Shown: in pieces, positions 6,066-61,365 of the stretch
Numbering within the stretch: the stretch's first letter is position 1
Layout of the letters: the number at the start of each line of letters is the position of its first letter
Assembly: GCF_020520425.1 (NCBI RefSeq)
Contig: NC_079489.1
Span: 83,334,810 to 83,398,809 of the forward strand
DNA length: 64,000 nucleotides
Reading direction: 5' to 3'
From: Spinacia oleracea
Lineage: Eukaryota; Streptophyta; Magnoliopsida; Caryophyllales; Amaranthaceae
Program-made: the position numbers and the translations under genes
Notes under the pieces: generated by a model
The model's database searches: none
What the model was told of the DNA's origin: nothing
Seen by the model: only the letters and a program-made list of their open reading frames with translations

Positions 6066-8925
6066 TGTAACACCCCGACAATTCTCTCTTTTCTAAAATA
6101 ACCTTTTAATATAAAACATAGAGAATTATCAAGGCATTATCGCCCGTGTGAAAACGTAACGGCTTATTCAGAATTTTGCAGCGGAAAACATAAAACTAAC
6201 TTTAGGTTTATAAATAATCGATTACAGGTTTAGTCTCAAAAATCAACCAACGAAAATAAGGAAATATAAATAGTATGACAAGTTTAAAGTCCATTTAAAC
6301 AAACCCAAGTCAACTTAGCAAATCAAAACTAAATACAAGCTCTCTATTCCCGATCCCAATGATGCAACATCTTCAAACCTGCAGATGGACAATGCTTATT
6401 GATCCTTAGAGACTGCTCACCAAAGATTGGGTCATCACAGGATCAATAAGGCATAGCCATGATCAACATGCACAAGCAAAAGCACGTAATCAGCAAAGCT
6501 GAGTACTACATACTAAATCAATAATAATCCTAACATGATTCTATTAAACGAAACACCCTAACATGATACTAATGAACACAAACAAGGGTAGACAAAACAT
6601 GATAGTTTGACGACCATACTTGACCAGACTAGACTAGGCTAGACTTTTAGCAATAATATTATTTTAGTTGAAATAGACAATGGACCGAGTTGACCATCCA
6701 GAAGTCTTCACTAAGGAAGACGAGGTACGGGCGCGACTCCGTAACCTCAGTGACCTGCGATATCGAGGAACGTTTAAATAAAAATAGGACACGGTGATCA
6801 ATCCGGTCCGAATTAAAGGCCATGGGCTACCACCATGAACCCCAACTCCTGTTTGTCCGTCACTTCAGACGTGCACAGTCTAAAGCTATTGCTATTCAGT
6901 TTCACTTTACATGATTTACAAATTGAGATCCCGTTATGACTCAACCATTACATAAGACAGACAATTCACATTTGTTCACAACTGTTTTTTTTATCTTGGA
7001 ATTAAGTAAGTGATCATAACAGCATCAATCAAGACTCATTCCAACTTAACCAACCTTTCCTTTAACCATGAGCAACCCTTTATATGGGCATAAAGTTTCA
7101 ACTTACTAAACAAGGTCCTCCGCCCTTATAAAGTAGTGAAAAGATAGAAAGGGAACAACAACCAATTGATCCAACCCAATCATATAGAATAATCTAGTGT
7201 CCCCAACCAACATGTTTGTATCAAACATCCATACTAACATGTTACAGTTCTTATAGTGCAAAATAAGTTCAATAAGTTTGTCCAACAGTATTAAACATGC
7301 ACATTCCATATAACCAAGTTTGTCTATAATATCAACATCACCAAGTTCAACAATAATATCAACATGATTTCAACAATTAGCACACATTCCAAGCACGCAG
7401 GTATGTACGTACCTTGTGTAAACAAATTGATAGGCCACTTTAACACTTTCAAAAGTCGCCTAAAGAGAATTCTCCGCCTAAAATAACCAGCAAGTAATCC
7501 CAATCAATTTCTAATCATTGGCAACCATAATAAAGCATTCTAAATGCATCCTAAACATATTTAGAACTTTCCCCAATATCTAAACTTAGACATTTGATTT
7601 CCTAGCATCATTGAAATTCGTTGAAAACTTTTTGCAAACATCGTACTTTAAATTTTCAGCAATATAAATTCATTTAAAAGCTTCACCGAGGTCAATCTAT
7701 GTTCCTAGTATCTCAAAACGACGAATTCAATAATCCATACTCAACTTACCATGATTAATAATCATAAAAACCTTGAATTTCATACTTTAAACAATCAAAA
7801 TTAATATTTCAAAGTAATTTGATAATCTGAAAATTAATAACTTTATTATATAATTTGCATAATCTGAAATTTATAATTTAATCACAAAAACCATAACTTT
7901 AATTCACGAAAACGTAATTCAAATTAATAAAACCTCATTAAGCCCTAACTTATTTTTAATTAACCAAAACTGAAAATAATTGGTTTATAATATCAACACC
8001 CAAATCTGGAAATCATATTCAACAACAAAATTATAAATTTAATCCAAGAACATCATTTAAATTAACAAACTATAATTAAAATAATTAGTTACTTAGGGTT
8101 TAAGAAATAACCAAGAAAGAGGAGAGGAAAAGCTGGGCGGTGCACGACGCGGTCAGCGGCGGCCGGCTGGGTTGTTGACGTGGCGGCAGCGGTGGTTGCT
8201 GTCGCGGGTGGTGCTGTGCGCAAGTCGAACAAGAGGAGGGGAGTGAGGGAGGATGAACAGCAGTGAATCGAAAGAAAAGAAGGGAACGACGAGGAGATGA
8301 AGCGGTGGCTTACCGGCGAGGACAGCGACGCGGTCCGGCGGCCTTGGTGGCTGTTCAAGAAGACAAAGCATTAAGGAGGAGAGGAAACGCAAGGAAGAAC
8401 GAAAACAGGGGAAAAAAGGACGACGAAGGAGAAGGTCGAAGGATACTTACCGACGGCGAGGAGACCGGCGGCTGGAGCAACGGCGTGAAGGAGGAGAGCA
8501 GCGACGAGGAGAGAGAGAGGATGAGTTCTTGAGGGTTTGAAAACTTACGTGAATAGTGAAGGAGGGTTTTGTTTTTCTCTTCCTAGCTTTCACGTGAATT
8601 AGAAGAAAGAAGGGGAGGGTTTGAGTTTGGGTTTTAATGTTGGGCTTTTCAAGTGGGCTAGACTTAGGATTTAGCTTTAATGATTCGAGTCCAAAACTGA
8701 ATAGGATCGTTTTCTAAATTCAATCAATTTTCGTAATTCAAATTCTTTTCAACTTAAAATTCTAAAATCATTTTCGATTTCGTAAATCGTTGAAAATATT
8801 AAAATGTAATAAATAAATATACGTTAACTATATATTTATTTCCAAAATTCATAAATTCTTATTTAAATATATTAAATATACGTTAAAATATATAAATGAA
8901 ATATATAAAATTACGGGGGATTACA
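6066..8925 (-). repeat. Right (5') LTR, complete, 2,860 bp
   Basis: Bounded by near-inverted termini TGTAACACCCCG and CGGGGGATTACA. The last 1,482 bases match the left LTR. It ends directly against the NAC exon (GAA codon at 8928-8926). Confidence 0.93.
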
Positions 8926-10354
8926 TTCGCTCTGTGCGACTTGTGGAGGATCAAAGAGTGGAACCCATTCTTCCTCAACGAATTGGTTTTCGTTCCACGG
9001 TCCGTTGTAGTAAAGCTTGCAGATGACATATTTGTGATGATCGTGTCCAACGTCATCACCGGTAATGGAATACTCTTTCATCCTCCATTGCGTATGTTCT
9101 TCACCCCATTTGAAATAGAAGTTTTTTACTTCTCCGACAATTGTTCCCAAATGAAACACATATTTTGTCGCTCCAGAACCTTTCCATTGACCATCCCTAG
9201 TCAATCTCTTACGTTCTTCTCCTCTTGGTACAAAAAAAAACCACAAATTGCCCCTTGAGTCCAACGGTGATAGGCTTGGCAGTTCCCACGGCTCGTAGTT
9301 GTAGAAATCCACTTGAGTAATAGCTTCCCAACCATACGGTTTTCCTGTGATCTTTCTTTTGAGGTACCACTGAACTAGTTCCTCGTCTGTTGGGTTGAAT
9401 CGAAAACCCGGTCCAAACGGCTGTACATTTGTTGTAGCATTTGTTTAACAAAAGGGTAGCAAGATGACTCACAATGGGATGCAATTAGTTGTAAAATGTG
9501 ATGCAAGCAGATTTAATGGTTGAACTATATAATGTGTATAAAATGAGATGTTTGTGAGATTACCATAGAGTGTCATGTACACATATGTTCGTTTTTTGAT
9601 ACATTTGTATTTAACATTTGTTCGTTTTTTTATTAACCAACTTATTATTATAGTTGTCACCAATTTCACATGTTGTTTTTACTTTGAAAGCAATTATAAA
9701 ATGAGGGGCAATTAATTAATTTCTGAAATGGAACACATATTATCCATTAATCTCGATTAAATCTAATTACAATTTTAGCAAATTCATATGTGAAGTAGAA
9801 CCAGTTTTGCCGAATGAAATTGTCCAGATCTGAATTAGTTGTTCATAATGTAAACATGGAATCCCAATTTTTAGTCAAACCCTAATTAGTTTTAAACATT
9901 TAATGGATGAATTATACTTTGTAGTTACCAAAATTGAACATGTGACCTCTTAATTCTTTTGGATTGTTGTAAGAAACAAGACAAAAAACACCAACATTAA
10001 CTTAGTACAACTCGAACAGCAATACGATTAGCAAAAATAAGACCACCATTTACAACACCATCACCATCGCCAACACCCACACCAACACCAACACCAACAC
10101 TAACACCCATCACAAACAACCACCAACAACACCAAGCACTTCCAATTTCGTGACCAAAACAACTTCTTTCGTGACCAACAACACCAAGCACAACCACAAT
10201 TTCGTTATCAAAAGAACTTAAAATAGGATTTAAGTACAACATAATTAGTATACAATAATCGAAACACACAAAGGAAGGGTTGGATCCATACCACGATTGG
10301 CCCCAAATTGTAATTCGCCATCTCTGGAAGCTCGGGTTGGTGTTGGTGTTCCAT
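8926..10354 (-). pseudogene. NAC-domain transcription factor gene, 3' end cut off by the LTR element
   Basis: Join of 10354-10292 (21 codons, start MEHQHQPELP) and 9420-8926 (165 codons). The intron runs from GTATGG to TGTACAG and is phase 0. The second exon carries a NAC DNA-binding domain: GPGFRFNPTDEELV near residues 24-37, KPYGWEAI, DFYNYEPWELP, a Trp-Phe-Phe-Phe-Val-Pro-Arg segment, WKGSG and KYVICKLYYN. NAC proteins bind DNA as dimers and activate through a C-terminal region. Here coding runs into the LTR after residue 186, gains four codons (CNPP) and stops, so the C-terminal region is lost or lies beyond the retrotransposon, outside the window. The DNA-binding part looks intact, so a truncated protein is possible. 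The domain is divergent: the usual GYWKATG motif is GQWKGSG. The intron holds an ACACCA-type microsatellite near 10050-10110. Confidence 0.82.
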
Positions 10355-11113
10355 GATTTCACTCAAATTTGGGCGTCTTTGGTTTGTGGAGAGAGAGAGG
10401 AAATGATGGTTTTTTTTGAGCTTTGTGAAATGAGTTTGTGAGGTGTGTGATGTAAGAATGAGTGTAGTGTGATTAAATGTAAAAGGAAAATGAACTTAGT
10501 TTTTGCATGTAAAGTAGTCTGAATTTTGAGACAGGTATGGTAGTATGGGGAAGACAAAGGTTGATGTGATTGCCTTGTTGACTTTTTTACTCCATAAATT
10601 ATAAATGTAAATTATTTATTTGTGTATATGCTTTTAAAAAAAGTTATCCGTTTTTAATTTGTCTCTCTTATTTTTAATTTTAGTCGTGTATGGAAAATTA
10701 TTCATCCATTACCAATAAAAAGTTCCAAAATACGCAAGTGTAAGAGTTAATTTTATCGACAGAAGGTACATTGTGGGTGTCATCATTACCCTTATTTCTT
10801 CCCCAAATTTGAACTGCGTGATTATTTTTAGTTATTCTTTTACGAAATTTGACATTGTGGTTACTTTAATATCAAATGATGTTGAAATTATATTTTACTG
10901 TGACCTATTTAGTTGACGTCATATTAATTTGACCCTTACATGCATGTTAATGAAACAGAAAACGTTGTTTAATAAAATATACTTTTACAAGCATATGAAT
11001 CCGCATATGGGATATGTAAGAAAAATTATTGGGTTATTGCAAAAACTAGGGTCCAAAATTTTTACTACGTGTTCATAAAACCCTTAGTCGCGGTATACTT
11101 CAAGGTCGTTGCC
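10355..11113. other. Intergenic, upstream region of the NAC gene
   Basis: A/T-rich. On the minus strand it contains the NAC promoter. The segment 10530-10585 (AGACAAAGGTTGATGTGATT, then CTTGTTGAC on the plus strand) resembles 12180-12220 upstream of the next gene. No other coding signal was seen. Confidence 0.5.
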
Positions 11114-12032
11114 CTACCAAGTATCATCCATTACTTCGTCACAATGTAATATTTTAATCATGACAAATTCTCTCCATTTTTTGCAAACTTTAGCTATTTC
11201 CATTGCCTCCGTAGACGTGAAACGTGGAAATATCAATCTCCCCATAATGTTTTCATCGAATAGTGCCCAATGTTGTTCTCGTTTCAGCTGCAATGTTATT
11301 ATTTTAATTTAAAATAAAGTTAGTAATCATCTCCTAATATCCATCAGTAAATTGCAAAACCAGAAGCTGAATAGTACAATTTAGGATAATTACTACTTTT
11401 TGGACAACTATATGACTATATACATAAATTGATCATCTCCTTTAATGTCCACTCGAACGTTTGCAGTAGATAACTCCATCTTAGTTCATGTAATTAAATA
11501 TTTAAAAATACACAAAATTATACACACAAACATGTAGAATAATTTTCCCAAATTACAACCCCTTTGTAATGAAATTTAGTTTAACGACTCCATTTTACAA
11601 TTTACCAATTACACCTACATTATTTCGATTTTGTGTAGGAAACAAAATAATTTTAAACAAGACTTGAAGTGTAAATCGTAGTATTAAACAATCACTCCCC
11701 CAATTTTTTGATTGATTATTCACAAAATTAGTAAATCAACAACAACATTAGCAATTGAGCATTCTTTTTATTTAAATTTCGCAACTAACACCACAATCCA
11801 CAACAAATTAAATTATTAATTCCAGATCTAGCTTTAACAATCAATTAACATCCAAGGGGTCATCAATAGTTACGAAATAATTTCATTTCAAATGTTAAAA
11901 TAATAGAATTAATTCCTACATAATTACTGTATAGACATGAAATAAAGAATTGAGAGGTACGCTTCTTACCAATTCCAAACCAAGTTGTGTTGGTAGCTGT
12001 TGTTCCCCATCTTGTTGTTGTTGATTTTCCAT
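11114..12032 (-). CDS. Small F-box-like protein (78 aa), two exons
   Basis: Join of 12032-11970 and 11287-11114, with a GTAAGA...TTGCAG intron of 682 bp in phase 0. Exon 1 is 21 Gln-rich codons (MENQQQQDGE). Exon 2 encodes LFDENIMGRLIF, then a VCKKWREFV segment. This matches the spacing of an F-box: a helix with Ile-x-x-Arg-Leu, then Val-Cys-Lys-x-Trp-Arg. F-box proteins normally link SCF ubiquitin ligases to targets through a C-terminal recognition domain, and this protein ends only about 16 residues after the motif. The LPxD/E start of typical F-boxes is not obvious. The frame is open with clean splice sites, so it looks maintained. It shares the 63-bp first-exon layout with the neighbouring NAC gene. 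The F-box assignment is by eye and moderate. Confidence 0.6.
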
Positions 12033-12694
12033 TCCGTGAAGATGTAGTTTAGGGAGGGTTTTGGAGTTTATTTTTATTGAGAGAGTGATTTTGTGGAGTT
12101 GTGTCTTGGAAGCTTACTTACTTCTTTGTAGTTCTATTAAAGTGATTTTTCTCTTAATTTTTAGACAAGAATGGGAGTGTAAGGGGAGACAACGTATGAT
12201 GTGATAGGTTTGTTGACTATTGGACTACCTTTATTTGTTTTATTTAACCTGTTTTCAATTTATACTAGATATAATACTGGTTGTGTATGTTAAGTTTATT
12301 TTACGGTTTTAAAATATATTGTGTATGTAATAATAATGATGCAATAATTTTTGTACCAACTCCCAAGACGCAGACGCTTGGGTTATTTTTATCGAAATTA
12401 ATGAAGTCGTGCGTGTCTCAATTCTGCTGTAACATTAACTGTATACATTAGTTTTGTTGTAATTGTTAATGGAATTGTAATCCCAAGTACAGCATTTGAG
12501 TTCCATTTCATAATTTATTTGGTTATAATGTACAATAATCTATTATTCATTATTGTAAATTTGAGGACTTCTGTCAATACATACTTTAAGTGAATGGCAC
12601 AAAAAAAAGTTGCGTAGGGAATTTATTTTATTAATTAAACGAACAATAACGTGACGAAGCATTGTAAGGCAAATGTAGAAAACGATTACAATTA
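12033..12694. other. Intergenic
   Basis: Holds the minus-strand upstream region of the F-box-like gene, including a block near 12180-12220 similar to that upstream of the NAC gene. The remainder is A/T-rich with no coding signal. Confidence 0.5.
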
Positions 12695-13168
12695 TCAAAT
12701 CCTAGTGAAATAAATAAGCAAGGCAAAGGCTATCATGAATGCCATCTTGTACATGAATACTTCTGCGTCACGTGCCTTTTCGATTTGGGCAATGAGCATC
12801 TCATTTGCAAGACTTAATCGCACACTCTGTTCCCGCAGATTTGAATTATCTTCTTGAAGTACCTCAACAATGTTGATAATTATGTCGTTCTCCCAAGTGA
12901 AGAAACCACAATTATCGTCCTGCATCCGAATCTAAATCATTACTATCCATCCCATATACTAAAGTAGGCACTGAAAAAAAAAATTAGTGTATTTGATACC
13001 AACCTTCCAATAAGGGCATGAGTAGAACCTTTGTCCAGCGTTCTTGGTGTGTTTACAAAGGTCAAGTTTGGCTTTTTGACCATGGTAGCAAAACAAATTC
13101 TTCACTCTACTCCCACGGGTGTTTCTCGTTGACGGGGATGAGGTTCGGGATTCATAATCTAAAACCAT
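12695..13168 (-). CDS. Small GRF zinc-finger protein with C-terminal membrane helix (129 aa)
   Basis: Join of 13168-13004 (55 codons) and 12919-12695 (74 codons plus stop), phase 0. Spliced, it gives the GRF-type zinc-ribbon order: CYHGQKA near residue 27, GQRFYSCPYWK near 46-55, then DDNCGFFTWEND from 56. The ligands would be Cys27, His29, Cys51 and Cys59. GRF fingers bind single-stranded nucleic acid in several DNA-repair and topoisomerase proteins. After it come a Leu/Glu-rich likely coiled coil (about 75-105) and a hydrophobic helix at the very C-terminus (MAFMIAFALLIYF), suggesting tail anchoring. An in-frame upstream ATG at 13246 would add 26 residues. The acceptor chosen is a GATGCAG at 12920-12922; the nearer acceptor at the T-run leads to an early stop. 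This domain set is common in plant proteins of unknown role. Confidence 0.72.
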
Positions 13169-13246
13169 GCTCTTAATTTTGTGATTTATAGTTTTGTAGT
13201 GGAACTGTTTGGTTTCAAGAGTACTTTGCTGAAGTAGGCAAGCCAT

Positions 13247-13630
13247 ACTTATAGTCCAATAAGTTGGTTTTAGATTTGAAAAAACGGTACATTCTAAATA
13301 TGACCGTTGTTATGTGGATGTTGGTTGGTCTGTCTGAAAATTATATGTTATACTTGGTATAATATTGGACATAAATGGAAAAATAATTCCAATGAGTCCT
13401 CATTCTAATACATATAATTTTACATATTCAGTAAATGTTTATGAATTGTGAAAACATAACAAGGAAAAGAATGAAAACAAATTTATTACAATCACTTATT
13501 GGGATCACAAATTTCCCGCACAATTAAAAAACTGAATGACCTACTGATATTACACTCATGCACAGAATTAAATTAAAAAAAAAATGAAGGATTAAAAAAC
13601 GAAATAATACAAAACCTTAATAGAAAGTAT
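13247..13630. other. Intergenic between GRF and mobile-domain genes
   Basis: A/T-rich sequence holding the minus-strand promoter of the GRF gene and the 3' region of the next gene. No repeats or RNA gene were recognised. Confidence 0.4.
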
Positions 13631-15364
13631 TTATATGTCACCGTACACATAATCCACAACTACCTCGCCGAACCCATAGGAACCATCTGGTCCTTTGTCT
13701 GATTTCAAGACCCTGTCCACGCTTTCTTGGTCCCATAGACGTAGACGACTTGAATTTGGAAATTTTTTTAGGATTCTCGTACTGTACGCCAGTCGATCGA
13801 TGTAGATTATCTGTAAGAACAGAGTAACTGTTTTAACAAATACAATTTAAACAAGTTATCGTACCCTACTAATCAAAATGTTTCAAATGTGGTACTCACG
13901 AGCAAAAGTAGTGTACACCCCCCGTATCCTTCTTTTGAGGAATTGAATTTGTTTCCATATTTGATAAGCCAGTCCAGTACATAACGTCCCCAATTATAAG
14001 TGGATGCTTCGCTCGCTATCTGTAGGACGCTTAGATGCAAAGGGCTTATCCATCCACACTTTTGAGTTGGGCATAAAATGGTTCCTAGTGCGTACAATAA
14101 GAAGTCTCTTTGAAAGGACTCTTTATCAGGCCGGTGACAGACGATTTTACCAAACACTTCAGATTGTGTAACAGCTCCGTACATTGTGTTCTGCTTGTAT
14201 AATCTTTTTATGGTTAGAGCTGTGCTCTTATTTGATAAACTCGGATGCATCAATTCTTTATCGGACGGTATTCCTAACACCCAATGTACCATTTCCTCAT
14301 CAATTGTAACCATGTAGTTGTCCCTAACCTTTAGTTGTAAGGTATTAGGATCAAACCTGGATGTAATCCAGTACCCAAACTTTGGGTCAATATTGAAAAT
14401 CCTAGTGAATAAAAGTTCCTCAAAGCCCATATCAACAATCCACAACTTTTGTTTACCGGATAATTTCCCAAGTAGAATTCCAAATTGACTAAGAGCACAT
14501 CCCATTCTAGGAATCTGTAAGTATTTGAAGTTGTCTTAGTGGGAGAGTTAATCATTTTGATTAAAATCAGACTTTTACATGCATATTTTATAATATCGGG
14601 GTTGTGAAATTAATATCAGGTCGTTGTAAAAAATCTAATTAACGTAGTTGCGTAAAATATGAGTGGTTACCTTCCTCCCGATATGTTCATCCTTAGTGGA
14701 TCCAGTATGCGAATCAGAACTGTCCGAGTCTTTTCCATTTGATTTCTTAGTCTATTAATATTATAATATTTATTAGACATGGAACCAAATATTTCATAGC
14801 ACAATACAATAAAGTAGTGTATGGACAATTAAATGTGACTCACCCTAGGTTTTTTGGTAGATGTTGTTGGGCTGGCCGCAACCTTTCTTTTTGCAGCCCC
14901 TCTCCCTTCTTCTTCAACATCTCGATGTTGAACCACGATTTGAACAAGTGGATTGATTTTTGTGAGTTCAACCAGCTTCACAAAGTCATCCTCATCTTGT
15001 ATTGGCACACCATCCTCGTGAAATCGGTCCATATCTGCAACGAACCAGATCGTATACTCTTTTCGGCATCCTAATTCTTCGATTAGGTGTTCCATATGTG
15101 TAAGGCTTAGACGAATTCTATTACTGATAATCGTCTGTGACAATCCATTCTCATATCCTCTCTTGGGATGGAAAATGAACTTCCCATGATACCAAATGGT
15201 AAGGAATATTATTGTTTTCCAATTGCAAAGCCTGTATCACATTTAATCATAGACTGCTTCAAATCAACCGATCTAATTGAAACGAATCTAATTGAACAAG
15301 TAGAAAATCAATGGTTGACAAAGTGCGGAATAATTTACCTTAAATTTTCCTCCACGGAGAGCAT
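13631..15364 (-). CDS. PB1-like plus plant-mobile-domain (DUF1985-like) protein, 427 aa, five exons
   Basis: Join of 15364-15339, 15231-14844, 14745-14671, 14514-13900 and 13810-13631; all splices are GT-AG and the frame is open throughout. Residues about 9-105 resemble the PB1-like N-terminal domain of Mutator-type proteins (TIWYHGKFIFHPKRGYENG, then a VVQH segment). Residues about 115-163 are a charged, Ser/Asp-rich linker with KRK and KKPR basic patches. Residues 164-427 form a mobile-domain module with TIDEEMVHWVLGIPSD, FQRDFLLYALGTILC and YNWGRYVLDW. The last exon (IIYIDRLAYSTR to VVDYVYGDI) matches exons 6-7 of the divergent Ulp1-like gene at 20282-20560, with the same intron position after Leu-Leu. 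The two genes are therefore paralogous in this module, but this one lacks a protease domain. Function is unknown; in plants such modules are usually transposon-borne. Confidence 0.75.
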
Positions 15365-15683
15365 TCTTCCGTCACCGATTTTGTGTATCTGTGTTTGGTT
15401 TTTGTCGTACAGTTGGGTAGTTATTCAAAAGGAATTGTGTAAAAAGCGGGGTTTCCAAAGGTACATTCAATAATGCGATGCTGACTAGAAAAGCGTGATG
15501 TACGATTAATTAATAATACATACATAATAAAATGCACACAAATAATTTATAATAACTGGTTAACATTGTTAATTCCAACAACACAATGTAATAAAATAGA
15601 AGTTAATACATGAAATACCTTAACTAAATATTACATTAATGATTTAAAAAATGTAGAACATCGTGATTATAACAAGCCACCGA
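15365..15683. other. Intergenic
   Basis: Contains the minus-strand upstream region of the mobile-domain gene. An extra 5' exon cannot be excluded. Nothing else was recognised. Confidence 0.4.
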
Positions 15684-16254
15684 CTATTCGTCGGTCAAGT
15701 CAATGACTTCAATCTTCTTTTGTCTCCCGATCATCATTAAGTATTCATTCTCTTCAATTGGCTCCCTCTTGATTAACCTGTCGTCCGCTTTAGCCACCGA
15801 TATTATACGTTGCCCAGACGAGTTTGGTTCAATACCTTGCCAAGAGTAGTTTTCTAACAAATAGGAGTCCCTTTCATCCATGAAAACCTCGCTAACTTTA
15901 GGAACATAATGTAATTCACTTAGCAATTTCGATATCTCTGAAGGACCTAGACGATTAATCACCACTCTCATGAACATTCTCCACTCGACTTTGAACCTCT
16001 CCTGCTCAATTTCAACAGCCAGGTATTTCGACCATCTTCTGGTGGGTTGAACATCTACAATTTTTAAAACAACATTAGGTTTTGTATTGTTTTGGTTACA
16101 CTAAAGGACCACATTGTTGTTTTGACAAATTTTAAACATTAACAAAATTACCTTTTCCATTCACTGTGATAGTTTGGGATGCACTTCCTCCAGATGATAC
16201 ATTCCTTCCTCTCCTTGTTCGTGGGGTTGACTGGTTGCCAGATTTCTTTGCCAT
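15684..16254 (-). CDS. 157-aa protein with C-terminal SUMO-interacting motif and sumoylation consensus
   Basis: Join of 16254-16152 and 16054-15684 (phase 1, GTAATT...TTGTAG). The N-terminus is basic (MAKKSGNQSTPRTRRGRN), a plausible nuclear signal. The middle (about 36-95) is Arg/Glu-rich and probably helical, with no family I recognise. The C-terminus holds LIKREPIEE, where IKRE at 129-132 fits the psi-K-x-E sumoylation consensus. It ends in EVIDLTDE, where VIDLT at 151-155 plus flanking acids is a textbook SUMO-interacting motif. Both motifs are seen directly; that they work is inference. The neighbouring divergent gene encodes a Ulp1-like (SUMO-protease family) domain, which makes the pairing notable. 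Its promoter faces the 91-bp tandem array. Confidence 0.7.
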
Positions 16255-16793
16255 TGTTGAAAGGAAATGGGTTAGTGGAGTTGGTATCGGTTTTGTGTAT
16301 GTAGTTGATTGCTTGAATGAATATGAGTACACTTTCAAGGGTTGTATTTATATGGCACTTCTTTGACTCACCAAAGACCAAATGTTGGAGAAATGGCGGG
16401 ATTACCTGGCGTAATATGTGGTGCACATATTTGATTTGTCACAACAGAAATTAATTAATAAGTTGTGTAATTTATTTTGTTTGATGAAATCGTTGTGTAT
16501 ATGAGTATGAATGCAAGTTTATTTGTTTTCCCACACTATTAATCACCAAAATAAAGTTTCCCGCCAACACAAAGGGTTGGTCATGCAACCAATCAGCTAA
16601 TGACCCAATCCTTGTAGTAGGCAAGAAGCAGACGAACCAATCCCTGTTTCACCAAACAGTAGTCGGGTCCACCATAGTTGTAACAATAATTTGGTATATA
16701 ATTGTGTATGTGTTTTAAATGTCCTTCGTGTTTGATGGTATATTCCTGTATGCACATTAGTTAAATGAATTGTGTATGTGTTTTAAAGATGTC
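16255..16793. other. Intergenic, promoter side of the SIM-protein gene
   Basis: On the minus strand a TATA-like stretch lies near 16345-16352, about 95 bp upstream of the ATG. No coding signal was seen. It leads directly into the tandem array. Confidence 0.4.
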
Positions 16794-17876
16794 AATTAGG
16801 TGTCATCATCTACTAGGTTATTACGCGTGATGGATGATGGCTCGGGAAACATGAACGGTTATCTCAAATCTTGGTAAGGAGATCAATTAGGTCATCATCT
16901 ACTAGGTTATTACGCGTGATGGATGATGGCTCGGGAAACATGAACGGTTATCTCAAATCTTGGTAAGGAGATCAATTAGGTGTCATCATCTACTAGGTTA
17001 TTACCCGTGATGGATGATGGCTCGGGAAACATGAACGGTTATCTCAAATCTTGGTGAGGAGATCAATTAGGTGTCATCATCTACTAGGTTATTACCCGTG
17101 ATGGATGATGGCTCGGGAAACATGAACGGTTATCTCAAATCTTGGTAAGGAGATCAATTAGGTGTCATCATCTACTAGGTTATTACGCGCGTTGGATGAT
17201 GGCTAGGGAAACATGAACGGTTATCTCAAATATTGGTAAGGAGATCAATTAGGTGTCATCATCTACTAGGTTATTACGCGTGATGGATGATGGCTCGGGA
17301 AACATGAACGGTTATCTCAAATCTTGGTAAGGAGATCAATTAGGTGTCATCATCTACTAGGTTATTACCCGCGATGGATGATGGCTCGGGAAACATGAAC
17401 GGTTATCTCAAATCTTGGTAAGGAGATCAATTAGGTGTCATCATCTACTAGGTTATTACCCGCGATGGATGATGGCTCGGGAAACATGAACGGTTATCTC
17501 AAATCTTGGTAAGGAGATCAATTAGGTGTCATCATCTACTAGGTTATTACGCGCGATGGATGATGGCTAGGGAAACATGAACGGTTATCTCAAATATTGG
17601 TAAGGAGATCAATTAGGTGTCATCATCTACTAGGTTATTACGCGTGATGGATGATGGCTCGGGAAACATGAACGGTTATCTCAAATCTTGGTAAGGAGAT
17701 CAATTAGGTGTCATCAACTACTAGGTTATTACCCGCGATGGATGATGGCTCGGGAAACATGAACGGTTATCTCAAATCTTGGTAAGGAGATCAATTAGGT
17801 GTCATCATCTACTAGGTTATTACCCGCGATGGATGATGGCTCGGGAAACATGAACGGTTATCTCAAATCTTGGTAA
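16794..17876. repeat. 91-bp tandem array, about 12 copies
   Basis: The unit begins GATCAATTAGGTGTCATCAT and repeats every 91 bp; the second copy lacks two bases. Copies differ at only a few sites, mainly in the segment written as ACGCGTG, ACCCGTG, ACCCGCG or ACGCGCG, and at GGCTCGGG or GGCTAGGG. Each unit carries a short inverted pair, CATCATC and GATGATG, about 22 bases apart, able to form a hairpin. The array lies between the minus-strand and plus-strand gene clusters. Low divergence suggests recent expansion or gene conversion. Confidence 0.95.
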
Positions 17877-18538
17877 GTGAAAATTTATACATGAATAGTG
17901 TTTAAAAATTTAGAGGAATATGAATGGTTAATAAAATTTTATACTATTACTTCGACATAAATATGTAATTAATAAATCATTAATACTGACCTTGTTCATT
18001 AGTAATTGACATATTTGTACACATTGTAACATAACCAACAATTTAATTATAATTAATTATTAAGGAGGGTGCACAACTAGGATATTATTTATTTTTTAAT
18101 TTTTTTTTCAACTAAAGTTAATTTGAAAATTGAAAAAGCTAACACCTACTCACCTACATGTCGGACGACATCATTACCATGTTTGACCAATTTGTTTTTC
18201 ATGTGTTGTTTTATTTGGAAATTAAATTCGCCGGTTTAAAAAATTAAAGCTTGGTCTCCCTCAACCATTTACTTAGAAAACCACTACAACACCCAAACTC
18301 TCTCCAAACGCCGACGGCCTCACCCGCGTGAACAGTGAATGTAAGTAAAATTGATCTCATCACTTAAATCCTTATTCTAGATGCACCAATCAATATATTT
18401 GGTATGTGTTCATGTTAAAACATGATTGCATGTGTATTTTGTTTTAAAATTGATTAGTAATTGAAGTTTCAATCAATTAGGGACGACCCTGCTGCACACG
18501 ATTTTGGGGAGGTGGCTTCGATTGCTGCAGCCTATGCC
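17877..18538. other. Promoter and 5' leader region of the Ulp1-like gene
   Basis: A/T-rich. A possible noncoding first exon ends at the donor GTAAGT (18341), with an acceptor at 18465-18466. The downstream exon is open in frame from 18467, but its first in-frame ATG is at 18539. Confidence 0.45.
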
Positions 18539-21500
18539 ATGAATTCAGATTCAATTGATTGCAATACTGGTGAAACAACCCCAGAACAAGAGGAATTGGA
18601 AGCCGATGCCCTCGAAGAAAACGAAAATTGCAGTCCAGAAAACACCGTTGATGGTGGCGCCGGTTCTACTGTTTCCCCACAAGTATGTTACACTTACCAT
18701 CTGTTTCGGTTTAGTAAAAGTTTTTTGTGAGAACCTAAAATAATAATAAGCTAATAAATGTTGGAAAAAGGCAAGGTTAAGTATTCATTTAGAATATAAT
18801 CAAGTAATTACTCTGTTGAACATGATGTAGACCGTTCAAATAGAGAAAAATGAACAAAGGGAAACGGAAGAGATACCCATCTTTCACGACATCGGAGTGT
18901 CTCAGGTATTATCTTTTAAGACATTACTTTTTAAGAAATTGGGTAAAAAGTTGTAAGTAGATGAAAATGAATAATGTTATTTAGTTATAAGAAAACACAC
19001 GCACAATGTTTTTCAAATATGATCCTTTACGGGTATAATGTTGTGCTTTACAATAGGATAAAATTTGGGACGACATAGGCATTGGTGAGCATTCAAGCCC
19101 GGTTCTAAACTTTGAAGACATTGAGGTAAAACAACCGTAATGTCTTACTTAGTTATTTAAAGTTCAAAAGTACTTGATAAAATAAGAGTGGTCAATTGTA
19201 TTAGTGGGTAATGTTACATGTTGCTGCAACTTTTGCTATTGTTAGAATGACATTCTACCTGGACATCAAGAAACCCCACACGATGACCAGTCCGATGATG
19301 TTATCAACCACCCCACAAACGTTGAACCTAATAACGAGCAGATGCCACAAAGGGAAACCGATAGGGTGGTGAAAGATAAACGTCCACACTGGCCTAGGAG
19401 AGGAAGGCCGCCTTTGACGGATGATGAACGGTTGAAGCGTGGGAAGCCTCTTGGAAGGTGGGTTCCGGGTGGCCCAGGAAGGCCACCATTGGGGAAGGGT
19501 CAAAGCAAGGCAGCAAAACCGGTATTTTACTTTTTAAGCTTTATTAGTCTACAACAACAATTCGTAACCATTGCTTGTCGTGTTTGTAACGTGTTTCCAT
19601 AAATGTTTCATTTTGTTCAGCATACGTCGTTAAGGGTTTACCCTCAATTAGTTATAGACGCAGTGAATGCAATGTGTCCAGTAAGAAAAGATTGGGTTGC
19701 GAGTGCGGGGTTTAGGTCCATTCTACAACTTAAGGTAAACAAGGTAGATAGACATTTTATGACTTGGTTAGAAAAGCGGTGGGACTGGAAGGGACAAGTT
19801 CTTCTTATACGTGATGACTACGAGATTACAATTGATGAGGAAATGATATCTTGGATCACTGGCTTACCAATTGGTGACCAAGACTTCAACTCAATGACAT
19901 TAGGGGAAGATGAAATTGTAGAATTCCAAACTGCTTACAACACTCGTAGTGGGATTGATTACACAGAGGTTTACAACAAATGTAGTGTTGAGGTCAATAA
20001 GTTCTGGTTTACAAGGAATTTCTTGTTGTTGACTATGGGAAGTCTATTTTGTATGAACAAGTACAACTTCATAACCCCAAAACTACTGCCATTATTGAAG
20101 AAAGAATACGTTGAGAATCCGGCTACATGGAATTGGTGCGGGTTTGTGTATGAATGGATGACAGGTCGTGGGAAGGAACCAGGAAAAGCTTCTGCGTTTG
20201 TATTATTGGTAAGTTAATAGTTGACTTATCTGTGTTATAACACTGTGGTGAATTATTAATCAGTATTTTGTATGTTGACAGATTGCATACCTGGATCGTA
20301 TCAAGTTTAAAAAAACTGGAAAGTTATGGTGCAAAGAAAAGCCACGCATAGGTGCTTGGACCACCGAGGACATGGACTTGGTCATTGCTACTGATAAAGG
20401 GTCCAACGGCGAGTTTGGAAAAGCGGAGGTAAATTCGTAAAAACACACACATATCTCACATTATCATAGCTGAAAAAAGGAATGAATGCACTAACACACC
20501 AATGTCCTAACACACTAAAAACAGGTGGTTCGGGACGTTGTTTACGGTAAAGACTACCCAATTGGAAAACCAGTTACAATACCACCTTGGATCCATCATC
20601 TAGGAGACAATGTTGTTGGGGAACCCATCATTCCTCCAGATGTGCAAAAGGTCAACTTACGCCAACACAAGGATCAGCAACAACCAAACAAGAAGGTAAA
20701 TTACCTTAACCAGGTAGTATTTTATACAGCCTATTCCAAAATTTTGAAAACATTCACTAATGAAATGTATGAACTTAACCAAATACGTACCGAATGTAGG
20801 GTAAAGTCCCTAATAAAAGGAAGCGTAAAAAAATTGCTAAGAGAACATCCAGTAGAAGTTCCGAGGATGAATACGATACCAACGAAGAAGATGATGAAAC
20901 CCAGTCCGACGATGACATCCACAGAAGGGACTTCGCAAATCAACCGCCGTTGGTTCATCCTAAGCATGCAAGGATTGCTGACACGATACTGGCAAAAAAC
21001 AAAAAAGCACCTCAAGTTCTTTTCAAATGCGGGGGACATTCACTGACTCGTGGTTTGTTGTATTCCTCTTTTACGATTCCAGGAGAAATAAATCTCCAGG
21101 TATGTGTTGTCAAATTATGTGCGTTTTCATAACATATTGGCCACGATATTCTGTCTCGGAAACATAATGGTAATTTCCACTTACAGATTATGGATGCTTG
21201 GTGTGCTACTTTGAACATGGACATCTTAACGAACCCTGGAAATAAATCATACGTGATCCACCCAACGCTTTTGGTAAGTGTATTACAAGCGTTGATGTTA
21301 TTGCAGGTGGATTAAGAATAACAATAATGACCATTTTCTTGTAGAGTGATATAATGGAAATTGACATAAAATCAAACACGTATATGGAGTTGGAGGTGCA
21401 GAAGGTGAATGAAATAAAGAAAGACTTCGCAAACAACTTTGTTTGGAATGAAATCAAAGAGGTAAAATATCCATTTTATGTCGTTCATATATTCACGCTA

Positions 21501-22157
21501 TTTGGCCTAATCATAATTCAGCTTAAACCCACTTGAAATGCAGTTGTATATACCCCTTTTCCTTGGTGACAATTGGTTAGTGATTAACATATCCGGTGGA
21601 AGAAGAGAGCTGAGGTTATTTGACCCAAGGATAAAGCCACATACAGCTGAATCTGCTGTCCGTTTACTAGGCCTCAAGATTGTACGTCCTCTATAATTTT
21701 TATTTGTTAGTTGAAATGATAAATCGAATTGTGAATCATGCGTCCTGAAACTTTTTGTGATGTACACCAGGCTAGCATAATTGGGCAGATTCCACCCCAA
21801 CCCACCGAGAACGACGTGTGGTCATCGTTTTCAAAAGGCGATATCAAATTTGTTGTTAGAAACAATCCGTCCGCGAAAATCGGTACGGACTGTGGCTTGT
21901 TGTGCATGCTCCACTTGTTGTCTGTCCTGGAGAATGTGCAAGATATGATGAAGGTAACACAATACTTTGGAATGGCTTTGTTATTAATTAAACAACATAC
22001 AAACGATGATTCAGTTGAATGGTTTGAATTGCAGACTTATTTGGACAACGATAATGGTGTTAGGAAATTCCTACTTGCTCGGTTGGTGGGAAGCCATCAC
22101 AATGAGGTCAAGTCAAATGACGTTTTGAAATTAATTCTAGGCAAATATCCGGCATAA
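18539..22157 (+). CDS. AT-hook / plant-mobile-domain / Ulp1-like (C48) protein, 805 aa, 13 exons
   Basis: Join of 18539-18682, 18831-18905, 19057-19125, 19246-19521, 19621-20208, 20282-20428, 20525-20695, 20800-21099, 21187-21273, 21345-21461, 21544-21681, 21771-21953 and 22035-22157. Every exon is a multiple of three and every intron phase 0. Order: acidic N-terminus; two AT-hook-like cores (RRGRPPL near 147-153, GPGRPPLGK near 172-180) for minor-groove DNA binding; a mobile-domain/DUF1985-like module at 189-480 (TIDEEMISWITGLPIGD); a nuclear signal KRKRKKIAKR near 496-505 and an acidic run; then a Ulp1-type cysteine-protease fold. In that fold the usual His-Trp is Asn668-Trp669 (GDNWLVI), Asp685 sits in LFDPR, and Cys745 in TDCGLLC. 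Ulp1 enzymes cut SUMO, and loss of His would leave binding without cleavage. Similar transposon-borne ULP genes (KAONASHI) are known in Arabidopsis. Confidence 0.8.
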
Positions 22158-22302
22158 GTTTCGTTCCAAATTCCTACTACAACAATGATTTCTTTAGAAT
22201 TTGGGTGGATTAATATTACGATGTGATCATATTGTATTCAGTCACATTCAGATTGTTACATTATTCAGAATATTTTTCTCTTAATCCCCCGGAATATGTA
22301 AT

Positions 22303-23100
22303 TCATGCATCAACAACTCCCTTTTCGGTTATTTTAAACCTACATACATTTAACTCTAGCGTAGATGATAACAAGATACTTATCATTCTTACGTAACTTT
22401 GGTCTGCGGAATTAGTTGATTTTGATAAGAATAACCTTGTTCCTATATTCCGAGTCCATCCGTTGCCCAGAGCAGGCCGAACCTTCCTTCCGGAGGACAT
22501 CATGAAATGTGTAGAGGAATCGGAATCAGTTGGAAACACATCAATAACATTATTGACCACTAGGACGGCAACATTGTATTGGGATGCAATGGACTTCAAA
22601 CCGTATCCAATTGCACGAAGCAATTGTGTTCGTGACTCTAGCCCTTGAGCCGTGTTCTCAAAATGGCTAGTGCAAATACTTGCAATAGAGTCTATAACAA
22701 CTAACCTGACATGCCTGCATGTGTTGTGCGACTGTTTAATCAACTTTACAACCCAGTCAAGTACGTCAGGTAACTCATACGGTGATTCAACCTGTTTGGT
22801 TGTTATATGATCACAGGGGTTGTCATTGGGATCAAGAGAGGTCTCTAAAATGAAGGGTATTAGAGAAGTTAACCTTCGAATTGGAAAAGGTCCAATTGAG
22901 TGTATATAAATGGTTGCCCCATACATTCCACCCACAGACGGAGGTAATTGACATGCAATACTAGTTTGAAGGCAAAGTTGTGTCTTACCGGTCGCATTCT
23001 CCCCGCATAATTCAGTCACTTCACCAACACTTATTCCACCTTGCAAAATACTATCAATAGAATCGCACTTCGTTGTAATTTTTGGATGATTTGCTGACAT
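22303..23100 (-). CDS. XRCC3-like RecA/RAD51-family ATPase, intronless, 265 aa
   Basis: Single open frame from ATG at 23100. It has a RAD51-paralog ATPase core: Walker A GENATGKTQ (residues about 33-41), followed by LCLQTSIACQLPPSVGG, a serine/proline loop with IYIHSIGPFPIRRL, and Walker B LVVIDSIA (about 132-139). The LPPSVGG and FPIRRL signatures point to XRCC3 among RAD51 paralogs. XRCC3 with RAD51C acts in homologous recombination and resolution of strand-exchange intermediates in the nucleus. The protein is short, lacking about 40 N-terminal residues of typical XRCC3 before the ATPase core, but it reaches the usual C-terminal ITxxGV ending. It is convergent with the Ulp1-like gene, with a 145-bp gap. 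Absence of introns suggests retrocopying or capture by a mobile element. Whether it is active is unknown. Confidence 0.8.
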   Translation of the reverse strand: MSANHPKITTKCDSIDSILQGGISVGEVTELCGENATGKTQLCLQTSIACQLPPSVGGMYGATIYIHSIGPFPIRRLTSLIPFILETSLDPNDNPCDHITTKQVESPYELPDVLDWVVKLIKQSHNTCRHVRLVVIDSIASICTSHFENTAQGLESRTQLLRAIGYGLKSIASQYNVAVLVVNNVIDVFPTDSDSSTHFMMSSGRKVRPALGNGWTRNIGTRLFLSKSTNSADQSYVRMISILLSSTLELNVCRFKITEKGVVDA

Positions 23101-23800
23101 TCTTTTACTTTAATTTACTTTTACACTAAACAACCATTAATATATATACAAGTTGTATTGTGCTACACTAAACTTGGATGTCAACAAGAAGATTAATTAT
23201 GTCACTCAAACTCATACAAACTACACAGAAACTTAAACAATTATTTCTACAATTTGAAAATTACTAACAAAATACCACAAATAAAGACGCCAACATTTTC
23301 AACAACAAATGTGAACAAAATAAATGTAAAAATATTCCATTGTAGTAAATTTTATTTAATTAATTAATCGTTGTATGCGTGTCAACGACCTGTAATTAAA
23401 GACGGTATTCTAATTACTTTTATCAGCACGTGGAGCATTAAGTCACACTATTACTATATTCTGGACGCAAATGAGGCAATGGCTTCGGCCTCACGTCACA
23501 ATGGTTACTGCCTTAACATAGAGCATTTCTTCCCCTTTGGTCTGAGGTTCGATACCTGGTAGCAGCGGCATTATGCATATTAACCTTCCCCCCACCCCCC
23601 CTAACCCGCACACTTTTTTTTGTAGCTTTTCCCCATACTATTTTGATGTCAAATTCAGTTCAACGCTTTGCGTTTATTTAAAGTTAAAAATTAGATTAAA
23701 TTTAAAAAGTACCAATAAACAAACTTCAAATGACAATCTAGCGCAAAAATTCCATACAGATAATACGGTACCCAATTCATTATAACATTGATAAAAACAA
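23101..23800. other. Intergenic between XRCC3-like and FAR1-type genes
   Basis: A/T-rich. The part 23461-23560 is less A/T-rich and includes a GGTTCGATACC resembling a pol III B box, but no cloverleaf or clear A box was made out. A C-rich run lies at 23585-23602. No gene was identified. Confidence 0.35.
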
Positions 23801-26553
23801 CTACATGGTCAATCTTCCTCCAAGTCTTGTGTTCCATTCAAAGGTAACATAATCAAAAGTTTGAGATATATCTTCGGACAAATTTATTTGAGATGATTCA
23901 GGAATGTCTTCTAAAACAGGTCCAATGGATGAAGAATATAAACGGGCATCCTGAACGTTGTTCGCATGCTCTTGCCTTGCCCGGTAGCTAGGAATATGGC
24001 CATAAGTAGACCTTATGAGTTCCTACAATTAATTACCGTAACTTGTATGAATTATAAGTCGTAATAAAAAATAAACATTCAAATAAAAAAAAAAAAACAA
24101 TTTTACATTACCTCGTTCGCTGCAATCTCAGCGTGATTACATGCTTGGTTCTTCTTTGATTTGTCGTAAATTGAATACGGTCCTTTCTTAGACCGCCCAA
24201 CATGCCTCTTATCAATGGGGGTTTTAATGGCACCATCCTCAGCAGGTTGAGATGCCCTCTTTAGGGCACGTTCATTACACTCCCTCGGTCGTAGCCTACG
24301 ACGACCAAATACGTTACGTGCTTCGGGATCCCACCAACAAATAGACTGATCACCTCCTTCACCAGTCTTTCTTATACCAACTGCATCCTCCATTTTCAGC
24401 CTAAGACTATCAGTGCCTTCCGTATATAACTTGTAGGCAGCTTCATTGCGCATGGCTAATTCTTTCAAATAATTATGCCTTTGGGAAAGCTCTTTAGCTT
24501 TGGCTAACGTTGCGGTTTCTTCAGGATCATAGTATGAAACCCTAACACTCTCATACGACCTAACTTGCTTCGTCCATCTATCTAGTATATATTTCTCCGG
24601 TATAAATTGGAAATCCTCCACATCCATTTCTTTGAGTATGTGCCTACATAAAATACCCCTAAATTCAAACAACTGACATGAGCAACTGACTTCCCCCTTA
24701 ACCTTATCTACTTTAACAACGTAACTTTTGAACCTTTTCCTCCAATGAGGGGAGGTGAGTTTCTCATCTGCTCTATACAATACAAGTGACCCTATTGCAT
24801 TGGTTTTGGTTACGTTCGTATGGGTTAAACCTTTACGCTCATTCACAACCGCAGCAAACATCTCATTGGTGTATACAGTATGCAACACATACTCAGCTAA
24901 CACACTCTTGTCCACATCAAGTTTAGGAGGCTTATCTATACTATTATGATTATCCTTCGACTCTTCCTCTGCCTTTATCTTCATACAGAACTCGTAGTTT
25001 TTAATGAACTGCGTTAATCCACAATCTAAGTTTACATGAATTTTGAATGTGCGATTCATACCTTCACTTCGTTGCGTAGAGGACATTCCAGCCCAAAATT
25101 TACCTCTATTGTACGCTGGTGCCCATTGCCGACGTTTATCATACGCATCCAGCATCCAACCCTGACGTTGATTATATTTGTCCATCACAAGACACCAAGC
25201 CTCATCAAACTCCTCGGGATCGAGCATGTCATGAACGGCGGTTCTAATTAGCGTGTCGATGCTTTTCCATTCATCGAGCTTGCCGAGATTGCGAGAGGCA
25301 TTTTGTAGCATGTGCCACAAACAAAGCCTATGAGGAACCCAAGGGAAAACTATGCTTATCGCTCTACCTATTGCCTTGTCTTGATCGGTTATAATTCCCT
25401 TAGGAGGCTTTCCCATGCACTTAAGCCATTCCTCAAAGACCCAAACAAAACTCGGAGTGTCTTCGTGTGAGATTAAAGCGGCAGCAAAAACAATTGACCT
25501 CCCATGGTGGTTGACGCCAACAAACGGGGCAAATGGCATACGATACCTAGTTAATTCAGTAATTATTACTGTGTGAAGTAGGATGGAAAAACAATATCAA
25601 GTTTACTATTATCGCATGCATACAAAATAACATTACAATAACATGCACTACCACATGCACAATTAATTCAATTTCAAGAAGACTAAACTAAATAACCCAT
25701 AAAACAAACAACCACAGTTATGTAATAGAAACAAATAAATAATAAAATAACATACCTGTTGCTAGAAAAGGTGGTGTCGAAACTGATCACATCCCCGAAA
25801 TATTTGCAACTTCCTCTACTACGCGCGTCGGACCAGAATGCGTTCTTTAAAATACCCTCTTCATCTCGTTCTATAGAACTATAAAAATCGCCATTCAGAT
25901 CTCGTTGTGCTTTAAAATACTCTTCAAGTGCAACAGCATCCCCTTTCTCAAACATGGTTTTACGACGTTCAACAGCTATGGCGTTCCTCAAATCTTTTTT
26001 GTTGAACGTCATATTATCAAAACCACCCTTTTCAATCAATTGCGTGCCAAAGTTTCTACTAATGCTAACACCGGCACGTTCATTTATCATTACCCTATCA
26101 AAGGTAGCACTACCGATGCTTCTATAGTTAACCATCATCCTACTATTTTCGGGCAATAGAGGATGATTATGCACCAAATCACAACTAATAACTACAAACT
26201 CTCCGTTTTTCTCTTTACCATAAAAAAAACGTTGCAACCAGTAACATTAGACCCGACACTAGATTTCACGCCACCTTTCTTACACTTTAATCTGATCATC
26301 TCCATCGTATGAGGCCTAGCCTCAAGCTCACCAATACCAACTCTACTAACACCCTTATCCTGTACTCCTTCTTAATCTTACTACATATTACAAACAACTC
26401 AAAACCAGTCATGTACGCATAACGATTGCAAAATTCAAAAAACTCACTACCGGACTCAAAACACATTCCTGGACAAGGGGTGGTTGGCGTAGTTGAATTC
26501 ACAATAGTTCCTTCTCCGACGTCAGGTTCAACATTAAGGTCTATACTAACCAT
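23801..26553 (-). pseudogene. FAR1/FRS-type Mutator-like transposase with two 1-nt frameshifts
   Basis: Join of 26553-25756, 25546-24112 and 24022-23801; splices are clean (TAGCAACAG/GTATGT, then CTAG/GTATCG). Exon 1 starts MVSIDLNVEPD and carries a FAR1 DNA-binding region (FEFCNRYAYMTGFELF, then DLVHNHPL). Exon 2 holds the MULE transposase core: first Asp in FDTTF at the exon 1 end, MPFAPFVGVNHHG, second Asp in IITDQDKAIG, CLWHM, and the Glu of TQRSEGMN. A SWIM zinc finger (CSCQLFEFRGILCRHIL) follows. Exon 3 is a 73-residue tail. In exon 1 the frame slips twice, near KIKKE (about 26350) and in the T-run near 26225. Each looks like a 1-nt deletion, and adding two bases restores the phase needed at the splice. 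Exons 2-3 are fully open. It could be recent decay or homopolymer sequencing error. A domesticated FRS gene is the alternative. Confidence 0.78.
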
Positions 26554-29047
<2,494 letters not shown>

Positions 29048-34201: not shown

Positions 34202-35599
34202 TGTTAGGTTATGATACATATGACAAAACATAAATCATGCGGAAAACCTTAATGCCAGGAAACATATTATTTACACATAATCATTTAGCATAATTCAGAT
34301 GCATACACTTTGTAGCGTGCCCTCCCTAGCTGCGCCCGAACCGAACAAGAACAAGTCTTTAGGACTCCAAGTGTCGTCCCACCGTAGATAGTCCACAGCA
34401 CGTCCGGATCCGCCTTAAGCTTGACCAACTAGAATCGCCCTTAAGGTTCTAAGAATTTTCGGCTAATAGGCTACAAGTGTTTGGTTGATTTTGTTCCAAA
34501 ATCTTACCTTTGAATACTTCAATCCTCGATGTAAATATGTGACTCTAGGCACCTATTTATAGAGTTTATGGAAAGGAATTATAATCCTATTAGGATACTA
34601 ATTAGTTTAATTAGAATTTCATTAAAACTCTTTTAAACTAATTCTATCTTTATTAGGATTAGGATTTAATCAATGAACGAATTCCATCAGCTTTAGGATT
34701 CGTATCGAACACAAACGTTGCACGACCACGAGCGTACCGCACAGCCCGCGCAGGCCTTGCGGCCCACACGAGCAGGCGCTGCTCGCAGCCCACGAGCGTC
34801 AGCCCGCGCGCGCGCCTTGGCCTTTGCTGGGCCTGGCCTTGCGCTGGGCCTGGCGTGGCCTTGGCTGCGTTTGTGTTGGGCGCTTGGCTTGCTGGACGCG
34901 GGCCTGGCTTCGTGATGGGCCTTCGTCTAGCAAGTCTCGACCGATGCTAATTCGTACGATACGCTTCCGATTAAATTCTCGATTCCGGAATTCATTTCCG
35001 ATACGAACAATATTTAATATTTCCGATTCCGGAATTAATTTCCGTTTCGAACGAATATTTAATATTTTCGTTTCCGGAATTATTTTCCGATTTCGATAAT
35101 ATTTCCGATTCTGACAATATTTCCGTTTCCGGCAATATTTCCGATTCCGGCAATATTTCCATTTCCAATAATATTTTCCGATACGTACCATGATTCCGTT
35201 TCCGGCAACATCTACGACTTGGATAATATTTATATTTCCGAAACGATCCATATTTCCGTTTCCGGCAATATCATCGTTTCCGGAGTATTCACTTGCTTGC
35301 CTTTGACGATCTCAGCTCCCACTGAAACCAAGATCCGTCGATTCCGAATATCCATAGATGGAGTATTTAATGCCATTAAATACTTGATCCGTTTACGTAC
35401 TATTTGTGTGACCCTACGGGTTCAGTCAAGAGTAAGTTGTGGATTAATATCATTAATTCCACTTGAACTGAAGCGGCCTCTAGCTAGGCATTCAGCTCAC
35501 TTGATCTCACTGAATTATTAACTTGTTAATTAATACTGAACCGCATTTATTAGACTTAACATTATATGCATACTTGGACCAAGGGCATTATTTCCTTCA
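34202..35599 (-). repeat. Left (3') LTR of the copia-like element
   Basis: 1,398 bp. Contains a GC-rich block (about 34720-34930, runs of GCG/GGCC) and a tandem region of TTTCCG, TTCCGGCAATA-type units (34960-35290). The same order occurs in the right LTR and, inverted, in the LTR at 59999-61350. Confidence 0.92.
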
Positions 35600-61350: not shown

Positions 61351-61351
61351 G

Positions 61352-61365
61352 TGGTATCACGAGCC
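61352..61365 (+). other. Primer binding site of the second copia-like element
   Basis: TGGTATCACGAGCC, an initiator-Met-type site with one extra base, one base after the LTR. Confidence 0.82.

Follow-up and report, generated by a model that had tools for sequence, protein, structure and literature searches.

In Jittery-like Mutator-like elements (MULEs) of grapevine and melon, ULP genes lie downstream of the transposase (PMC2528002). VANC proteins, which contain DUF1985, bind short motifs in noncoding tandem arrays of their own elements and cause methylation loss (PMC5735166), and ULP-bearing VANC genes exist (PMC13317346), so that MULEs carrying ULP genes are a known kind, as an earlier note made from the sequence of the DNA studied here had said of KAONASHI elements. 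XRCC3 acts with RAD51C, helping RAD51 onto chromosomes (PMC5470734), and homology-directed repair of gaps is a further way in which DNA transposons gain copies (PMC2686159). Fungal DNA transposons carry TET/JBP genes, which are proposed to serve the element (PMC12730594). Here we describe a block of eight genes at 8926-26553 of a 64,000-nucleotide stretch of spinach DNA (Spinacia oleracea, contig NC_079489.1, 83,334,810 to 83,398,809 of the forward strand; "the window", from whose first base all positions are counted), in which an XRCC3-like gene lies beside a MULE transposase. With a probability of roughly 0.55, we see in this block a damaged member of a FAR1/Jittery-type MULE lineage in Spinacia that has several genes, the XRCC3-like gene among them.

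From 8926 to 26553 the genes are, in order, NAC, F-box-like, GRF finger, PB1/PMD-like, SIM, ULP/PMD-like, XRCC3-like and FAR1-type MULE transposase (PMD, plant mobile domain). All are on the minus strand except the ULP/PMD-like gene, and a 91-bp tandem array divides them into two groups. As part of the reading just given, and with the same slight lean in its favour, the supported core of the element extends from SIM through the transposase gene (~15.7-26.6 kb, ~11 kb at least):

15684-16254, minus strand: SIM protein gene, 157 aa, ending VIDLTDE, which we take to be a SUMO-interacting motif (SIM)
16792-17877, no strand: tandem array, 12 copies of 91 bp with 97% matches, in the interval from which the SIM and ULP genes diverge
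18481-22157, plus strand: ULP/PMD-like gene, 805 aa, 13 exons, with AT-hook-like motifs and a TDCG motif
22303-23100, minus strand: XRCC3-like RAD51 paralogue, intronless, 265 aa, Walker A and B present
23804-26553, minus strand: FAR1-type MULE transposase gene, ATG at 26553, two frameshifts relative to the spinach protein P0001

The transposase carries a MULE transposase domain (PF10551, 3e-24; PF00872, 1.1e-4) and is matched by P0001 at 99% identity across 96% of the query. Among the 120 matches listed, spinach accounts for 12 of the first 13; these 12 proteins have identities of 56-99%, and four of them are 818-834 aa long. At the protein level the family is dispersed and multi-copy, with spinach relatives on all six chromosome-scale contigs seen, and the five long transposases are 67-84% identical to one another. 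The relatives carry the source name FAR1-RELATED SEQUENCE 5-like. No relative of the transposase or of the XRCC3-like protein was confirmed among viral contigs.

The XRCC3-like gene sits between the ULP/PMD gene and the transposase, 0.7 kb from the latter, and its product has a Rad51 core (PF08423, 2.8e-30). The best PDB chain for this protein is an XRCC3 (120.6 bits, 5.3e-34); a second XRCC3 chain, 9omy_X, scores 81.7 bits, about the same as RAD51 homolog 2 at 82. Five of its 90 matches are spinach proteins, all with the RefSeq name XRCC3 homolog, which are 95, 88, 80, 78 and 73% identical and are encoded on four chromosome-scale contigs. The remaining 85 show at most 40% identity over the whole domain (two short matches at 45 and 42% cover 16 and 15% of the query), and non-spinach plant matches, where named, are mostly XRCC3. 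The six spinach-type proteins are 71-95% identical to one another, a range that overlaps that of the five long transposases, and the GKTQ and IDS Walker motifs are kept in all six. In a tree of 54 rows, made up of these six and 48 of the 85 other matches (those among P0126-P0180 that are 270-320 aa long), the spinach-type proteins group in a single clade; its support is 100/100 and its stem measures 2.23 changes per column, the midpoint root serving for drawing only. The long stem counts against recent copying of a typical plant XRCC3. Beyond the five relatives there was no spinach host XRCC3 among the named matches.

A column test on the aligned proteins shows that the clade was under constraint after its copies spread, because positions at which the XRCC3 of other plants is conserved vary less frequently within it. 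Of the columns that are ≥90% conserved in the non-spinach rows, 24/88 vary within the clade, against 45/88 of those that are <60% conserved (Fisher p 0.0019). The test used 45 of the 48 non-spinach tree rows (the outliers P0154, P0175 and P0177 were removed) and 257 columns, of which 81 with intermediate conservation stood outside the Fisher test. This test was used in place of the intactness of the five relatives, which was not counted as evidence since annotated proteins are biased to intact frames. Because the dispersed relatives diverge like the transposases, the best non-spinach match over the whole domain reaches 40% and the clade is constrained, we lean towards the XRCC3-like gene being cargo of the element and not a stray neighbour, with the confidence given to the reading as a whole.

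The SIM gene is placed within the core because it has two relatives, P0211 and P0212, at 75 and 69% identity, a divergence like that of the transposases. Both come from read assemblies; their tails are VIDLSED and VIDLTDETD, so that VIDL is kept in all three proteins. A further tie crosses the 91-bp array: the PMD-like parts of the PB1/PMD and ULP/PMD proteins, encoded on its two sides, are homologous (30% identity, 243 aligned positions, E 1e-35), and the element probably extends left through the PB1/PMD gene. That gene, the rest of the left group and the two neighbours are as follows:

13631-15364, minus strand: PB1/PMD-like gene, 429 aa, five exons; it and the ULP gene have paralogous PMD-like parts
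12695-13168, minus strand: GRF zinc-finger gene, 129 aa, two exons, PF06839 3.6e-10
11114-12032, minus strand: F-box-like gene, 78 aa, two exons, F-box E 0.042, sub-threshold
8926-9420 and 10292-10354 (exons), minus strand: NAC-like gene, 188 codons reaching just inside the long terminal repeat (LTR), cut after ...VAQSE
6066-8925, no strand: gypsy-type element, 3' LTR, which cuts the NAC gene and is a later insertion outside the unit
27560-29047, plus strand: ubiquitin-ribosomal L40 fusion gene, ubiquitin 9.1e-33 and L40e 1.5e-26 for a product assembled by eye

Seven gene models were built, all with open frames and with GT-AG introns where spliced, and the transposase was mapped with P0001 instead. 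These models bear out the eight genes and the limits 8926-26553 given in the earlier note, together with its statement that frames are intact outside the transposase and the truncated NAC gene. Within 8926-27240 the longest stretch without a stop has 497 codons, whereas none of 200 Markov resamples exceeded 181, and Rfam gave no matches in 8926-30000. Of the identities that the note had proposed, those of the XRCC3-like ATPase (as a Rad51 family member), the NAC factor (NAM domain, 5.6e-29) and the GRF finger were recovered by Pfam. The FAR1-type transposase held in part, having the MULE transposase domain in a broken frame and a FAR1 domain that falls below threshold. The PB1-like, mobile domain and Ulp1 labels are all sub-threshold or unmatched in Pfam, but the two PMD-like parts are homologous to each other; the F-box label likewise lies below the curated threshold. 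In the ULP/PMD protein the active-site TDCG is present and an Asn appears to occupy the expected position of the catalytic His, as judged by eye. In the PDB, neither the ULP fragment nor the SIM profile had a relevant match.

The leftmost genes are tied to each other. The promoters and first exons of the NAC and F-box-like genes are homologous (10292-10804 and 11970-12482; 166 points against 115 for the best of 300 shuffles), both first exons being 63 bp long and the downstream domains different, which suggests, on the aligned DNA, an internal duplication. We therefore treat the two as one group, with no tie to the transposase. Among the upstream regions of the eight block genes and the ubiquitin gene (36 pairs), the NAC/F-box pair was the only one of the best 12 unmatched by shuffles (0/100); for the PB1/PMD and transposase upstream regions, 2 and 7 of 300 shuffles scored as high. 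The NAC protein has a single match, P0213, which is 99% identical, uncut and from read assemblies; no diverged relatives came up in the searches, and P0213 is probably the same locus without the gypsy insertion, which entered the final coding portion of that gene. Protein searches found no relatives of the PB1 and GRF pieces, a weak result since the composite queries used admitted proteins of ~241-766 aa in one case and ~128-406 aa in the other, ranges that exclude single-exon PB1/NAC open reading frames and single GRF exons.

On the left, the block begins at 8926, directly after the end of the gypsy 3' LTR at 8925. The LTR copies at 1-1482 and 7444-8925 show no mismatches and the first mismatch is at 1483; the left limit of 6066 was taken from TG...CA ends. 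Judging by both LTRs being identical across 1482 comparable bases, the insertion is recent, and the left end of the element may lie outside the window. On the right, the ubiquitin-L40 gene starts ~1 kb from the transposase start and is probably a host neighbour that bounds the unit. By eye, its ubiquitin part looks canonical and its L40 tail diverged.

Local alignment of 26600-27560 with ~8900-26500 in both orientations gave only AT-rich matches, in agreement with the earlier remark that no terminal repeats were to be found. The best inverted match, 18083-18131 with 26651-26697, is AT-rich (41 points) and lies upstream of the ULP and transposase genes; under strict scoring it beats 299/300 shuffles and under lenient scoring 131/300 shuffles are as high. 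As a terminal inverted repeat it was dropped, being unstable to scoring. GGGAAA and TTTCCC sites near 27137-27246 were also dropped as termini, having no longer matching partner in the block. The earlier proposal of a cargo-carrying MULE of more than 17 kb thus survives in part: the transposase is multi-copy and the XRCC3-like and SIM genes belong to dispersed families, but the single eight-gene unit is not borne out, with no terminal repeats found.

More tentatively, the whole block could be a giant MULE of >17 kb, uniting a transposase with a VANC-like anti-silencing factor and the array it targets, proteins that face SUMO, a NAC regulator acquired by capture, and a RAD51 paralogue that selection keeps and that biases excision repair towards restoring the element by copying. 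In the reading we prefer, the transposase, frameshifted here and, to judge from its family, working in other copies, would move the element. The ULP/PMD protein, like the VANC/KIU anti-silencing factors, would bind the adjoining 91-bp array and lift methylation, a role suggested by domain type and position; it is taken as VANC-like because the gene and the adjoining tandem array fit the VANDAL pattern, and the array is a candidate anti-silencing target. The XRCC3-like protein would join host RAD51C/RAD51 and favour homologous repair of the excision gap, whereupon the large element would be copied back from the sister chromatid. We prefer this role in gap repair because XRCC3 helps RAD51 loading and transposons amplify via homologous gap repair; alternatively, the protein could act as a competitor of host XRCC3. 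More speculatively, the SIM protein might couple the element to SUMO pathways, with the ULP protein possibly a non-cleaving SUMO binder.

Several observations weigh against a MULE lineage with XRCC3-like cargo. The linkage of XRCC3-like, SIM and transposase genes is seen at one locus only, and the closest transposase (99%) and the closest XRCC3-like relative (95%) are on different contigs; a shared chromosome would prove nothing, because transposase relatives occur on all six contigs seen. Terminal repeats are wanting in the regions aligned, and no target duplication was seen, neither end being located. The FAR1 N-terminal domain (PF03101) reaches E 0.17 in P0001, which is sub-threshold. In the ULP/PMD protein, Peptidase_C48 (PF02902) reaches E 0.013, also sub-threshold, with a 180-aa piece, the Ulp1 protease has no Pfam match when the query is the full-length protein or 315 aa of it, and DUF1985/PMD has none. 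The PB1/PMD protein matches DUF1985/plant mobile domain at E 0.055-0.2, below the curated Pfam thresholds; its PB1-like part has no meaningful Pfam family match, the PB1 label coming from the initial sequence reading only. The VANC21 and VANC6 motifs have no matches in the 91-bp array, and no relatives of SIM, PB1 or GRF were found among named spinach proteins. Within the XRCC3-like clade, most members have a different residue at 31/88 of the positions that XRCC3 strongly conserves, so XRCC3 function may be altered and the role of the clade may have shifted from that of XRCC3; that it acts in gap repair is something we infer.

Alternatively, two or more mobile elements could stand side by side, which we consider rather unlikely. 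A MuDR-like element of ~8.6 kb (~18.0-26.7 kb) would then hold the convergent ULP and transposase genes with the XRCC3-like gene between them, and the NAC-to-SIM genes would be another element or host debris. The ULP and transposase genes do point inwards from two sides, as in two-gene MULEs, the inverted AT-rich match would mark such a unit under strict scoring, and the NAC gene has no diverged relatives. However, lenient scoring makes that match ordinary, the PMD-like part is common to both sides of the supposed border, and the SIM gene, left of the array, has relatives diverged like the transposases.

It is improbable that in spinach the XRCC3-like genes make up a host family of dispersed retrogenes, one member of which adjoins the transposase by chance or insertion. 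Host plant XRCC3 genes have introns and the gene here is intronless; its relatives bear the RefSeq name XRCC3 homolog, and the linkage has been seen once. Against such a family stand the five dispersed relatives, whose divergence falls in a range overlapping with the transposases, the constraint on the clade, and the position of the gene between two MULE-type genes, close to the transposase. If the block were a plain cluster of host genes, one of them a domesticated FAR1 relative, most frames would be intact, as they are, but we regard this as very improbable: the transposase belongs to a family of many copies and is broken here, and outside spinach no XRCC3-like match exceeds 40% across the full domain. 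A MULE lineage carrying the XRCC3-like gene remains the reading we prefer.

Other repeats lie elsewhere in the window. Three related ones (34202-35599, 42981-44363 and 59999-61421) are 85-97% alike, two direct and one inverted; they contain short tandem repeats of the CGGAAATATT type and are probably LTRs. An inverted pair, 39382-41832 and 61575-64000, spans 2.4 kb at 91% likeness, and the AT-rich stretch 30402-30635 has a 21-bp tandem array (30454-30589) between two direct repeats.

A spinach repeat survey counts 167 MULE-MuDR elements with 49,524 bases in total (PMC6337768, cited for the passage with these figures), a total so small that long MULEs probably went unrecognized there. A review of giant transposons (PMC6431247) mentions RAD51 and RecA nowhere. 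Among the open-licence papers listed for XRCC3 or RAD51 we recognized none describing a transposon-borne XRCC3. To our knowledge, no other DNA transposon encodes its own recombinational repair factor, and the giant MULE, if real, would be the first. Gap repair by homology is usually left to the host, and an XRCC3-bearing element would shape the repair that decides its own copy number. An XRCC3-like gene and a gene resembling those of silencing escape beside a transposase would be an unusual toolkit, and an anti-silencing gene, array and XRCC3 together would illustrate the way in which accessory modules are brought together in large plant elements. Spinach genes annotated as DNA repair protein XRCC3 homolog may, moreover, be transposon genes.

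Compared with plant XRCC3 as in the Arabidopsis CX3 complex, the protein shares the Rad51 family core, the Walker motifs and an XRCC3 as best PDB chain, whereas the spinach clade differs in its identity of at most 40% over the domain, long stem, 31/88 replaced positions, multiple copies and lack of introns. The fungal TET/JBP transposons resemble the spinach block in having a host enzyme gene as cargo, in another kingdom and with another enzyme and other transposon groups (PMC12730594). With the KAONASHI and VANDAL MULEs, which are not of the terminal-inverted-repeat type, the block appears to share a DUF1985/ULP-type gene, noncoding tandem arrays and the want of clear terminal repeats (passages of PMC5735166 and PMC13317346); it differs in its FAR1-named transposase relatives, its larger number of genes, an array without the known motifs and sub-threshold domain matches. 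Closest are the Jittery-like/FAR1-type MULEs, with a transposase and a downstream ULP-like gene, here in opposite orientation; in the passages of PMC2528002 cited, no XRCC3-like, GRF, SIM or PB1/PMD gene is mentioned for them, and the spinach block differs also in that no terminal repeats were found. ULP-carrying Jittery-like MULEs are thus already known, and what appears to be new here is an XRCC3-like repair gene as MULE cargo.

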